38,646 nt of DNA from an uncultured Chromatium sp. (GTDB lineage Bacteria > Pseudomonadota > Gammaproteobacteria > Chromatiales > Chromatiaceae). Both the position numbers and the translations under genes were made by a program. The notes under the pieces are model-generated. The model was not told the origin of the DNA. It saw only the letters and a program-made list of their open reading frames with translations, and made no database searches. The DNA lies in the NCBI GenBank assembly GCA_903897335.1, contig CAIUAY010000049.1, positions 1 to 38,646 of the forward strand, given 5' to 3'. Positions 17,397 through 21,956 of the stretch are shown here, in pieces; positions within the stretch are counted from its first letter, which is position 1; every line of letters begins with the position of its first letter.

Positions 17397-18158
17397 CTAA
17401 CGATCCCTTAATGTCAGCCGAGCAAAGCGTTCTGCTGCAATCTCACTGCTCAACTGCTGTAATGGCACTGTCGCCTCTGGCAGGCTCGCATCCAAGGCGT
17501 GTCGGCTATCGCAGCGTTGCAAGGCATAGTTCCTAACGCCGACATCCGCCAACATCTGAGCGATGACGCCCACATCTGCGGAACTCCAGTTTGGCATCAC
17601 TGTGGTGCGAACCTCCAGCGGGATACCCGCCTCCAGCAACAGGGACAGACTTTCCCAGGCGAGCTTCCCTGAATCAGCAACACCTGTGATCGGCTCATAG
17701 TCTGCCGCCAGCGCCTTGATATCCAAACCAACCCAGTCAAGCAGTGGCAGCAACTGGCGTAAGCGTTCAGGATAGGCGCCACCTGTATGCAACCCGATCT
17801 TGAAACCAAGATCACGTACCTCGGACAGCGCGGCTGTCAGATCATGTTGCGCTGTCGGCTCGCCACCACTGAACACCACGGCATCGAGTAATCCCTTGCG
17901 CTGAATCAGAAAACGCCTGATCGTCGACCACGGAATCGAGGATTGTGCAGAGGCATCATGCAGATTCCAGTTATGGCAGTAACGGCAGCGCCAGGGACAG
18001 CACTGACAGAAGATGACAGTGGCCAGTTCGCCTGGATAGTCAATTGTGGTCAGTGGCGTCAGCCCGCCAACCCGTAATGCTGGAGCATGTGCGGTTGGCG
18101 TCATGGCGGATTTCCGCTCCAGAGCATGATTGACCAGGCGCTTGGAAGCTGGAGACAT
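17397..18158 (-). CDS. nrdG: Anaerobic ribonucleotide reductase activating protein (radical SAM)
   Basis: This enzyme uses a 4Fe-4S cluster and S-adenosylmethionine to install the glycyl radical on class III ribonucleotide reductase. The 253-residue protein has the radical-SAM motif CPWRCRYC (C54, C58, C61) and the GGEP loop (FSGGEPT). It is the third gene after nrdD and the small glycyl-radical ORF. An internal ATG at 18104 would give a more typical N-terminus (MTPTAHAPALRVGGL). I kept 18158, which starts nine bases after the upstream stop. I am unsure of this start. Confidence 0.9.
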   Translation of the reverse strand: MSPASKRLVNHALERKSAMTPTAHAPALRVGGLTPLTTIDYPGELATVIFCQCCPWRCRYCHNWNLHDASAQSSIPWSTIRRFLIQRKGLLDAVVFSGGEPTAQHDLTAALSEVRDLGFKIGLHTGGAYPERLRQLLPLLDWVGLDIKALAADYEPITGVADSGKLAWESLSLLLEAGIPLEVRTTVMPNWSSADVGVIAQMLADVGVRNYALQRCDSRHALDASLPEATVPLQQLSSEIAAERFARLTLRDR

Positions 18159-18167
18159 TGTCCGATT

Positions 18168-18362
18168 TCAGGCCGCGAGCTGCGTCACCCGGCGGTTGAT
18201 CTGTGGCTGCTCTGAAAAGTAGCAGCGTTCTTCGTGTTCGGCGCGTTTGCCATGGTTGAAGGCGGACACCGGACGATGATAGCCCATCACCCGCGTCCAG
18301 ACTTCGCAGGGCGTGCGCTCTTCGGTCATGAGTTCGATACGGATTTCTTTGTTGTCTTGCAT
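18168..18362 (-). CDS. Separate glycyl-radical domain of class III ribonucleotide reductase
   Basis: This 64-residue protein has the segment RTPCEVWTRVMGYHRP (16-31), then NHGKRAEHEER. That is the pattern around the glycyl radical of NrdD (RVCGY in E. coli). Gly27 would carry the radical. The large NrdD encoded just upstream lacks this motif, so this ORF should supply it in trans. AGGA lies eight bases before the ATG at 18362, arguing for independent translation. The frame stays open upstream to 18443, overlapping the nrdD end in another phase. It lies between nrdD and nrdG. Confidence 0.8.
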   Translation of the reverse strand: MQDNKEIRIELMTEERTPCEVWTRVMGYHRPVSAFNHGKRAEHEERCYFSEQPQINRRVTQLAA

Positions 18363-18399: not shown

Positions 18400-18417
18400 G
18401 AGCGTGTTTTCACGCTC
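18400..18417 (-). other. Hairpin enclosing the nrdD stop codon
   Basis: On the coding strand GAGCGTG, AAAA and CACGCTC form a perfect seven-base-pair stem with a four-base loop. The nrdD TGA (18410-18412) begins within the 5' arm and runs into the loop. The 64-residue glycyl-radical ORF starts about 40 bases further on. There is no T tract, so it is not an obvious terminator; it may tune expression of the downstream gene or protect mRNA. Confidence 0.55.
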
Positions 18418-20464
18418 CGTTGTTGCATCCTGTCACGGCGCAACTCCGCTCAGCCTGCTTGCGGATCATGAGTTCCTGGTCGCAGATTGGGCAAAATGGA
18501 TGTTCACCGGCGAGATAGCCGTGAATGGGACAGATCGAGAACACGGGCGTCACCGTGATATAGGGCAGACGAAAATTCTCCAGTGCGCGACGCACCAGGC
18601 GCTTGCAGGCATCCGCCGATGAGATCTGTTCGCTCATATACAGGTGCAGCACGGTTCCGCCGGTATATTTGCTCTGCAATGTTTCCTGCATGGCCAGTGC
18701 TTCAAACGGATCATCCGTATAACCGACCGGCAACTGCGAACTGTTGGTGTAGTAGGGTGTCTCGCGGGTGCCCGCCTGAATGATGTCAGTGAAGCGTTTC
18801 TGATCCTCGCGGGCAAACCGATAGGTTGTCCCTTCGGCAGGTGTCGCTTCCAGGTTGTACATGTTTCCGGTGCTTTCCTGAAATTCCACCATCCGCATCC
18901 GCACATGATCGAGCAGACGACAGGCAAGCTGTTGTCCCCGAATAGTGGTGATGTCTTCTGCATCGGTCGTGAAATTGCGGATCATCTCATTGATGCCGTT
19001 GACGCCGATGGTCGAGAAATGATTGCGCAGTGTGCCTAGATAGCGTTTGGTGTATGGAAAAAGCCCCGTATCCATGTGGCGCTGAATCACCTTGCGCTTG
19101 ATCTCCAGACTGTTGCGAGCCAGGTTCAAGAGTCCATCGAGACGTGACAGCAGACCGGACTCGTCACCACGATGGATATGCCCCAGTCGAGCGCAGTTGA
19201 TCGTCACGACACCGAGTGATCCAGTCTGCTCTGCGGAGCCAAACAGACCGTTACCGCGCTTGAGCAGTTCGCGCAGATCGAGCTGCAAGCGACAGCACAT
19301 GGAGCGAACCATGTTCGGCGAGAGTTCTGAGTTGAGGAAATTCTGAAAATAGGGCAACCCATATTTTGCCGTCATTTCAAATAGATGGCATGTATTTTCG
19401 CTCTCCCATGGAAAATCTGCGGTGATGTTATAGGTTGGAATCGGAAAGGTGAAAATTCGCCCTTTGGCATCGCCCTCGGTCATCACCTCGATATAAGCAC
19501 GATTGATCAGATCCATCTCGGCCTGAAGGTCGCCATAGGTAAAAGGCTGCTCCACGCCGGCGATCACCGGCACCTGCTCGCGCAGATCTTCGGGGCAGAC
19601 CCAGTCGAAGGTGAGATTAGTAAAGGGCGTTTGACACCCCCACCGCGACGGCACATTCAGGTTATAGATCAGCTCCTGAATCGCCTGCTTGACATGCGGA
19701 TAGTCCAGTTCGTCGACGCGCACGAAAGGCGCCATGTAGGTATCAAAGCTCGAAAACGCCTGGGCGCCAGCCCATTCATTCTGAAGCGTGCCGAGAAAGT
19801 TGACGATCTGCCCGATGGCAGAGGACATGTGTTTAGGCGACCCTGCCTCAACCTTGCCCGGAACTCCGTTCAGACCCTCATTGAGCAGTGTGCGTAGCGA
19901 CCAGCCGGCACAGTAGCCTGCCAGCATGTCCAGATCATGAATATGAAAGTCGCCTTCGCGGTGAGCCTGGCCAATCTCAGGGGGATAGACATGATTCAAC
20001 CAATAATTAGCAATCATTTTGCCTGATGTGTTGAGGATCAGTCCGCCGAGCGAATAGCCCTGATTCGCGTTAGCTGCAACCCGCCAGTCGGAACGATCCA
20101 GATATTCATTGATGGAGCTGCTGACATCCACCAGCGTGCGCCGGTCGGCGCGCAGCTTGTGATGCTGCTCGCGGTAGATGATATAGGCGCGGGCGGTACC
20201 AAAATGGTTGGCGCTGATGAGCGTCTGCTCGACGACATCCTGGATGTCTTCGATGTCCGGCAGACGTCCGTCGCTGAAGCGGTGTGCGAGTACCTTGATT
20301 GCCTGCGCGGCTAACAGTCCGGCTTCGGCAGCACCAAATTCTCCACTGGCCTGGCCTGCACGTTGAATTGCAGACTCGATCTTGGCGGCGTCGAAGCAAA
20401 CCTCGACCCCGTCGCGCTTGATCACGCGAATGGGTGGGGCTGGAAAGTTCGTCTGGATTGCCAT
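18410..20464 (-). CDS. nrdD: Anaerobic (class III) ribonucleoside-triphosphate reductase, large part without glycyl-radical motif
   Basis: NrdD reduces ribonucleotides to deoxyribonucleotides without oxygen. The 684-residue protein has an N-terminal ATP-cone (about 8-100, IRVIKRDGVEVCFDAAKIE), the catalytic barrel (for example RGNGLFGSAEQTGSLGVVTIN) and a C-terminal metal-binding region CPIHGYLAGEHPFCPICD. It then stops at NNGA with no RVxGY glycyl-radical site, which lies on the next ORF. The ATG at 20464 has GAGG five bases upstream; a TTG at 20515 is less likely. NrdR-like boxes precede the gene. Confidence 0.93.
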   Translation of the reverse strand: MAIQTNFPAPPIRVIKRDGVEVCFDAAKIESAIQRAGQASGEFGAAEAGLLAAQAIKVLAHRFSDGRLPDIEDIQDVVEQTLISANHFGTARAYIIYREQHHKLRADRRTLVDVSSSINEYLDRSDWRVAANANQGYSLGGLILNTSGKMIANYWLNHVYPPEIGQAHREGDFHIHDLDMLAGYCAGWSLRTLLNEGLNGVPGKVEAGSPKHMSSAIGQIVNFLGTLQNEWAGAQAFSSFDTYMAPFVRVDELDYPHVKQAIQELIYNLNVPSRWGCQTPFTNLTFDWVCPEDLREQVPVIAGVEQPFTYGDLQAEMDLINRAYIEVMTEGDAKGRIFTFPIPTYNITADFPWESENTCHLFEMTAKYGLPYFQNFLNSELSPNMVRSMCCRLQLDLRELLKRGNGLFGSAEQTGSLGVVTINCARLGHIHRGDESGLLSRLDGLLNLARNSLEIKRKVIQRHMDTGLFPYTKRYLGTLRNHFSTIGVNGINEMIRNFTTDAEDITTIRGQQLACRLLDHVRMRMVEFQESTGNMYNLEATPAEGTTYRFAREDQKRFTDIIQAGTRETPYYTNSSQLPVGYTDDPFEALAMQETLQSKYTGGTVLHLYMSEQISSADACKRLVRRALENFRLPYITVTPVFSICPIHGYLAGEHPFCPICDQELMIRKQAERSCAVTGCNNGA

Positions 20465-20563
20465 CGGCGCCTCGAGGGATTCATGGTGACGATCAGTAAG
20501 CGGTTTTTCTTCCAAAATCAGGTGCTTTAAAACCGAACAGAAAAAACATAATTTTCGGCCATG

Positions 20564-20611
20564 ACACTATATCTTGTGGTATGCAAGTTTAGCGTCAACT
20601 AGATAGTGTGG
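20564..20611 (-). promoter_or_regulatory. Tandem NrdR boxes over the nrdD promoter
   Basis: Two 16-base sequences resemble the NrdR box (acaCwAtATaTwGtgt): ACACTATATCTTGTGG at 20564-20579 and CAACTAGATAGTGTGG at 20596-20611. Their starts are 32 bases apart, close to the three-helical-turn spacing usual for NrdR. On the minus strand a -35 TTGACG (20593-20598) and a -10 AAGATA (20570-20575) are 17 bases apart and overlap the two boxes, so NrdR-ATP/dATP binding should repress. The nrdD start is about 100 bases downstream. Confidence 0.72.
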
Positions 20612-20888
20612 CCACTCGTAAAATAACCTGATTTCTAACGGGGGTTATCCGGGAGAGCCAGAGGGATTTCAAAGGCTTGTTATGGAGGTGCCGTTCTGGT
20701 CAACGCATGCAGGATGGTGATGGAAATTTGATTCCAATCGGTTTTTCGCGCCATGAATAGCGTTGCCATGCGATCCATGGAACGAACCACTAAATCCAGA
20801 ATGATTGATCTGAGTCAATCTTTAAACAGAAGAGGTTGCGTAAACGCGATCAATGTGCATTGGCCTCGACAAGGCCAGATGTGGAATG
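20612..20888. promoter_or_regulatory. Gene-free region upstream of nrdD with FNR-like sites
   Basis: No credible ORF is present. TTGATCTGAGTCAA (20805-20818) matches nine of the ten specified bases of the FNR/Anr consensus TTGAT-N4-ATCAA. TTGATTCCAATCGG (20728-20741) matches eight. They lie roughly 110-220 bases upstream of the predicted nrdD promoter, too far for classical class II activation, so a second promoter or chance is possible. A TGGCCT/AGGCCA hairpin is at 20861-20877. Confidence 0.35.
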
Positions 20889-20920
20889 GTGATTGCGAGC
20901 GAGACCAGACTCGCAATCAC
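20889..20920 (-). terminator. Hairpin downstream of the response-regulator gene
   Basis: GTGATTGCGAG (20889-20899) and CTCGCAATCAC (20910-20920) form a perfect 11-bp stem with a ten-base loop, about 20 bases after the regulator stop. No T tract follows on the minus strand, so intrinsic termination would be weak; it may instead stabilise the mRNA 3' end. Confidence 0.45.
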
Positions 20921-20939
20921 GGATGACACCCGCCAGTGA

Positions 20940-21956
20940 TCAGATCACAGGCGCGTGAAGGATAAAAAACACAAGCGCAGCGGCACCGACTCCAATCATG
21001 ACGGCAACGGTGGTCAGCAGATACATCCGGCTCATGGCTGAACGCAGCGACTGTTCTAAGGTTTGAATCCGGTTTTGTGAGTCCAGCATTGCGGCATCGA
21101 TGCTCTCCTTCGATTCGCGCCGCGCCTGTGTAACGGCTTTGAGCGTGATGGATTCTGCGTTTGCGTCCTGCTTTCCGGCCTGGGAAGAATCGCTGCTTGC
21201 CAGCTTCAGCTCGAATTCACGCAGATGTTTTTCGACGGAATCCATCACCCGCGTCCGTTCGGCGGTCATTTCACGCATGAGCAGATCCGGCAGGGTCTCC
21301 GTGGCCAGGCGCGTACTCATCGCCTGAAAATCAGCCATGGTTGGGGTTGGCGCGGGGCTCTGGCGCGTTGCCTCCTGTGCTGTCAGACGCGATTCGATGA
21401 GGCGTCGTGATTCGTTCAGCAGATTCTCGGTAAGATCCCGCCGCAGGTCTTCAAGAATGGGTGTCAGCAGTCTGCCAAGTTTTGCCTCAACCTGCACGTC
21501 GATCCGTTTTACAAGCATCTCTTCAGACAGTTCGGGAGACGCTGACGGGGTTGCTGGAATCGACGGCGCGACCGGCGGAACCATGCCGCTCGACAGGCTG
21601 TCGCGGAGCCGGTCGAGAATGCCGGGAATAAGTTCAGCGGCAGCCGATTTGGGCAGAATCCCGAACACCCCCTTTTTATTTGCCGTAGCCACGAAATCAG
21701 GCTCTTCGTGCGAGGTACACATGATCACCGGGATCTGCGCGGTGCGCGGGTCTTCGCGGATGACTTCGAGTGCCTCGAAGCCATTGAGCCCCGGCATCAT
21801 GTGATCCATCAGGATCGCGTCGGGCAGTTGTGTTTTCAGAACCTCAAAGGCAGACTCAGCGCAGTCTGCCGTTTCGACTTCCACCCCGTGACGCTGAAGC
21901 TGAAGTCGCAGTGCATAGCGCGCGGATTTTGAATCGTCGACCAGAAGTATTTTCAT
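20940..21956 (-). CDS. Response regulator with coiled coil and C-terminal membrane anchor
   Basis: Residues 1-115 are a CheY-like receiver with D7/D8, phospho-acceptor D51 (LMDHMMPG), T81 and K103. Instead of a DNA-binding or enzymatic domain there is a Pro/Ser-rich linker, a long charged helical region (about 145-305) and one hydrophobic helix (MYLLTTVAVMIGVGAAALVFF, about 311-333) ending in HAPVI. This predicts a tail-anchored receiver protein. No histidine kinase is adjacent. I chose the ATG at 21956 (GGAAG seven bases upstream) over 21971. Function unknown; scaffolding of a membrane-associated signalling complex is an inference. Confidence 0.78.
   Translation of the reverse strand: MKILLVDDSKSARYALRLQLQRHGVEVETADCAESAFEVLKTQLPDAILMDHMMPGLNGFEALEVIREDPRTAQIPVIMCTSHEEPDFVATANKKGVFGILPKSAAAELIPGILDRLRDSLSSGMVPPVAPSIPATPSASPELSEEMLVKRIDVQVEAKLGRLLTPILEDLRRDLTENLLNESRRLIESRLTAQEATRQSPAPTPTMADFQAMSTRLATETLPDLLMREMTAERTRVMDSVEKHLREFELKLASSDSSQAGKQDANAESITLKAVTQARRESKESIDAAMLDSQNRIQTLEQSLRSAMSRMYLLTTVAVMIGVGAAALVFFILHAPVI

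Follow-up and report, generated by a model that had tools for sequence, protein, structure and literature searches.

How does this uncultured Chromatium sp. control its anaerobic ribonucleotide reductase, and what do two short palindromes in front of nrdD contribute? The window, by which we mean the whole stretch of 38,646 nucleotides analysed here, is contig C49 of a 3.29-Mb genome in 277 contigs (G000). A preliminary description had placed two 16-mers, 32 bp apart, before nrdD; we confirm their coordinates and the start-to-start spacing of 32. With a probability of roughly 90%, we propose that they form a composite NrdR operator of the operon nrdD–glycyl-radical ORF–nrdG, which would cover the promoter and lower transcription, with FNR-type activation in anoxia. 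The pair is composed as follows:

20596..20611, minus strand: NrdR box 1 (upstream in the orientation of nrdD), CCACACTATCTAGTTG (CAACTAGATAGTGTGG on the forward strand), 11/16, C4 and G13 kept
20580..20595, minus strand: 16-bp spacer between the NrdR boxes, within the favoured spacer range
20564..20579, minus strand: NrdR box 2 (downstream), CCACAAGATATAGTGT (ACACTATATCTTGTGG on the forward strand), 14/16, C4 and G13 kept

Both boxes were scored against ACACWATATATWGTGT, which we take to be the NrdR-box consensus and which agrees with published probes; at 14/16 and 11/16 they match most of it, as had been claimed. Just 11 of the 38,631 16-mers in the window score at least 11, and the total of the two boxes, 25/32, is the highest of any pair in the window at a spacing of 31/32 bp. 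The runner-up in the window at this spacing that does not overlap the nrdD boxes totals 19, and the next best pair to retain all four C4/G13 bases totals 18; in the nrdD boxes all four of these base pairs are intact. Dinucleotide shuffling of the 430-bp upstream region, repeated 2000 times, never gave 25 (maximum 24), and a pattern search of the window with up to 3 mismatches returned 1 match against 0.06 expected. Across the 3.29-Mb genome, no site but the nrdD pair comes within 2 mismatches; three more appear at 3 mismatches, no excess over the 6 given by a reversed-pattern control, and none of the three is a pair scoring at least 21 at 31/32 bp. By eye, an 8-bp inverted repeat flanks the box region (20627-20634 / 20515-20522, AAATCAGG / CCTGATTT on the minus strand). 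An Rfam scan of the window at gathering thresholds gave no match.

The pair is widely conserved in relatives. Start-finding by tblastn took in 167 nrdD loci, 10 of them without a match; 2 of the 157 located were too short, and removal of redundancy left 131, namely 74 from the family and 57 from a wider search of named genomes. A pair scoring at least 21/32 at 31/32 bp stands upstream of nrdD in 71/74 family and 49/57 wider regions, a level reached by 0.07% and 0.5% of the respective shuffles (20 per region). Raising the threshold to at least 23 keeps 59/74 and 43/57 loci and zero shuffles. The family failures are L060, located only from query residue 77, L098 (G080), with in-frame stops in nrdD, and L095, where the pair is present further upstream; the wider loci without a passing pair are the eight L127, L134, L137, L151, L156, L175, L178 and L182. 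Of the 120 passing pairs, 113 retain all four C4/G13 bases, positions that also count in the score. Within the genus, 7/7 genomes in the collection carry the pair at 32 bp. The named best matches of NrdD are mostly Chromatiaceae purple sulfur bacteria (Allochromatium, Thiocapsa, Thiorhodococcus). Lack of conservation in relatives, which the preliminary description had named as evidence against its reading, is hence not what we found, and neither is the absence of the regulator that it had named alongside.

An nrdR gene lies on contig C210 of the same genome (209 bits against a cut-off of 124.65). Its product has both CxxC motifs and the DNA-reading residues D15/R17, and matches the NrdR of known structure with an E-value of 8.7e-59; TIGR00244 has matches in 136/146 family genomes. 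In the S. coelicolor structure, D15/R17 and the C4/G13 GC pairs make the DNA contact (PMC9110341). NrdR loaded with dATP and ATP assembles into a tetramer that occupies two boxes separated by about three turns, and acts as a repressor (PMC9110341, PMC12176259), and spacers of 15-17 bp were bound well by the four NrdRs assayed, except by that of Streptococcus at 17 (PMC12051234). The 16-bp spacer falls in the best-binding published range, in keeping with the earlier proposal of cooperative binding three helical turns apart. Judged by their sequence, the boxes are a genuine, well-supported and conserved NrdR site at nrdD, which is known biology and a fresh example of textbook control. Nucleotide-dependent binding of NrdR, repression and the exact transcription start are expected here by analogy with other species. 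In P. aeruginosa, loss of nrdR reportedly left anaerobic nrdD expression unchanged, so the strength of repression may vary with conditions.

Which promoter the boxes would act on depends on two further elements:

20805..20818, minus strand: FNR/Anr/Dnr-type site TTGACTCAGATCAA, a putative activator site some 200 bp above box 1
20586..20591, minus strand: TAAACT, a candidate -10 hexamer that aligns with TATAAT/TATACT/TATAGT of relatives, not picked up by the consensus scan

The boxes had been described as overlapping a predicted -35 and -10. A sigma-70 -35/-10 consensus scan of 20380-20960 does not support this, as it passed no pair; a likely -10 is placed in the spacer by the relatives, whose alignment has TATAAT-like hexamers between the boxes. 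Since no sigma-70 pair passes the scan, the promoter overlap rests on this alignment; given the hexamers in relatives' spacers, a bound NrdR tetramer should cover the promoter. NrdR on both boxes, with the -10 between them, would in this way lower transcription.

In anoxia, a protein of FNR type bound ~200 bp upstream would probably activate the operon. The inverted repeat TTGAYNNNNRTCAA has its sole window match at 20805-20818, with 0.11 expected. The genome encodes an FNR-like ORF (L287) in which, by eye, we recognise CRNCTLSSLC and ETISRLFTRFQ, presumably its CxxCx5C cysteine cluster and FNR recognition helix. All seven genus genomes have a site of this type 176-202 bp above box 1, two of them (G057 and G146) with a CTGA variant; in sister genera it is found about 6.5-45.5 bp above box 1 (63/120 loci). 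A site ~200 bp away is ill placed to contact RNA polymerase at a promoter in the boxes. In the interval from the FNR-type site to the boxes, 7/7 genus genomes conserve the block CAAGYCKTTGAAA (20667-20679, minus strand), and no promoter spacing was found that fits it.

Could the promoter then lie elsewhere? With the FNR-type site so far upstream, transcription could begin well above the boxes, near that site, and NrdR at the boxes would act as a roadblock that stalls or ends the transcript instead of blocking initiation. The missing consensus promoter at the boxes speaks for this, as does the constancy of the FNR-type site in the genus despite upstream neighbour genes that differ from genome to genome (by translation). 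Against it, relatives retain a -10-like hexamer in the spacer, and by eye no good -10 is visible downstream of the FNR-type site. We regard the roadblock as unlikely and prefer the reading in which NrdR blocks initiation at a promoter between its boxes.

Two further explanations would deny NrdR any role. Box 1 by itself, at just 11/16, might be put down to chance similarity in AT-rich DNA; we reject this, as no shuffle scored as high as the two boxes together and relatives conserve them, and give it next to no credence. That the palindromes belong to a different regulator and resemble NrdR boxes incidentally is also very improbable: nrdR is in the genome, C4/G13 are kept, the 31/32-bp spacing is common to 120 loci, and the site precedes a ribonucleotide reductase operon, the downstream ORF being identified as nrdD by PF13597 and NCBIfam NrdD.

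Is the same control extended to other reductases? The preliminary description had suggested looking for the tandem motif before other nrd operons. In the stretches read from this genome, no NrdR pair stands before nrdA or in the nrdB and nrdR loci; the pair is found at nrdD only, and its absence from those stretches leads us to reject NrdR control of the three other genes here. The genes nrdA and nrdB lie on separate contigs (L002, L037, L042). Among 29 class I/II loci of relatives, some have strong pairs (L258 with 30/32, L263 with 29/32) and others none, so absence at class I genes is not family-wide. Of the seven genomes of the genus, three (G057, G091 and G146) yielded no class I/II catalytic subunit, so that class III may be the sole reductase there.

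Comparison with known systems sets the locus in a familiar frame. E. coli likewise has paired 16-bp palindromes at the promoters of its class III and other reductases (nrdDG, nrdHIEF, nrdAB), 15 bp apart and bound by NrdR with ATP/dATP (PMC12176259); the window differs in its 16-bp spacer and in a genome where the pair is seen at nrdD but at none of nrdA, nrdB and nrdR. The P. aeruginosa nrdD promoter combines two NrdR boxes with an experimentally supported Dnr/Anr box, TTGACGCAGATCAA, nearly identical to TTGACTCAGATCAA of the window (PMC4409342, PMC5645315). That box lies 98 bp from the start codon; in the window, ~340 bp separate the site from the nrdD ATG, and the boxes follow ~200 bp below it. 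In Salmonella nrdDG, which is derepressed without NrdR, an NrdR pair and an FNR site also occur together; there, NrdR box 1 overlaps the FNR site, while in the window the two are far apart (PMC2892513). To the known examples of nucleotide-sensing control over the anaerobic reductase, the locus contributes another that is well supported. It has two peculiarities: in this genome we see the pair at the anaerobic enzyme alone, and throughout the genus the FNR-type site is out of its usual place. The NrdR site alone is of low interest; the part worth following is the split reductase and its phage copies.

The operon downstream of the boxes consists of three genes:

18410..20464, minus strand: nrdD catalytic ORF, with ATP-cone PF03477 and NRDD barrel/Zn motif PF13597 (2-530/562); NCBIfam NrdD
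18168..18362, minus strand: 64-aa ORF with glycyl-radical loop RVMGYHRPVSAFN, second operon gene, PF13597 (532-562/562)
17397..18158, minus strand: nrdG, the third gene, for a class III reductase activase of the NrdG2 type, TIGR02495 (193.3 bits against a cut-off of 131.15)

The catalytic ORF, for which start context favours ATG at 20464 over TTG at 20515, is devoid of the glycyl-radical loop; the 64-aa ORF that carries it has its own ribosome-binding-like AGGAAAG. We surveyed this split in 110 nrdD loci, 100 of them distinct once 10 duplicates were set aside. A separate ORF carries the loop in 96/100; one locus (L156) has it fused, and it was not seen in the other 3, whose contigs run out within 138 bp. 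The gap separating the NrdD stop from the loop motif measures 43 to 1680 nt. On these grounds we reject a frameshift or sequencing error behind the short NrdD, the loop being separate in so many loci and at such varying distance. As most relatives' NrdD lacks the loop, the small ORF beside nrdD has the look of an obligate subunit, as opposed to a spare. At the level of the class, 24/274 genomes have matches to a profile of the small ORF; in 5, the open frame is 613-773 aa long, which we read as fusion. A PDB search with the 64-aa ORF gave no direct match, and a literature search made largely outside subscription journals turned up no paper that we recognised as treating either an NrdD in two pieces or a class III glycyl-radical protein that stands alone.

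Two extra stand-alone glycyl-radical ORFs occur in the same genome. The copy at L201:3054-3305 (plus strand) sits between genes of the phage portal and minor head protein families, and the copy at L200:833-1063 (minus strand) is surrounded by ORFs that look phage-like by eye. Relatives of the L201 protein are found at 36 loci on viral contigs, mostly as small stand-alone ORFs; in some, such as L224, L225, L235, L236 and L237, the relative is part of a longer NrdD-like frame. A collection of annotated phage records yielded one weak match only. We tentatively suggest a two-piece class III reductase with its radical glycine on an exchangeable small subunit, prophage copies of which might replace the oxygen-sensitive part of the host enzyme; this is a possible reading, short of a probable one. 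Small stand-alone glycyl-radical domains are likewise known in YfiD/GrcA and T4 Y06I, the spare parts of pyruvate formate-lyase described in PMC8683613. The ORFs found here differ from these in resembling the class III reductase domain and in accompanying, in most relatives, an NrdD that lacks the loop. The same source raises the question of spare-part proteins for other glycyl radical enzymes (PMC8683613). If the glycyl-radical ORF and the phage copies act as exchangeable subunits, spare parts beyond pyruvate formate-lyase become testable.

In many relatives, nrdD has an in-frame insertion at residue 295/296; the window's nrdD is without one. The nrdD of G057 (L061) matches an intein splicing domain together with HNH and LAGLIDADG domains, which suggests that this gene holds two inteins.
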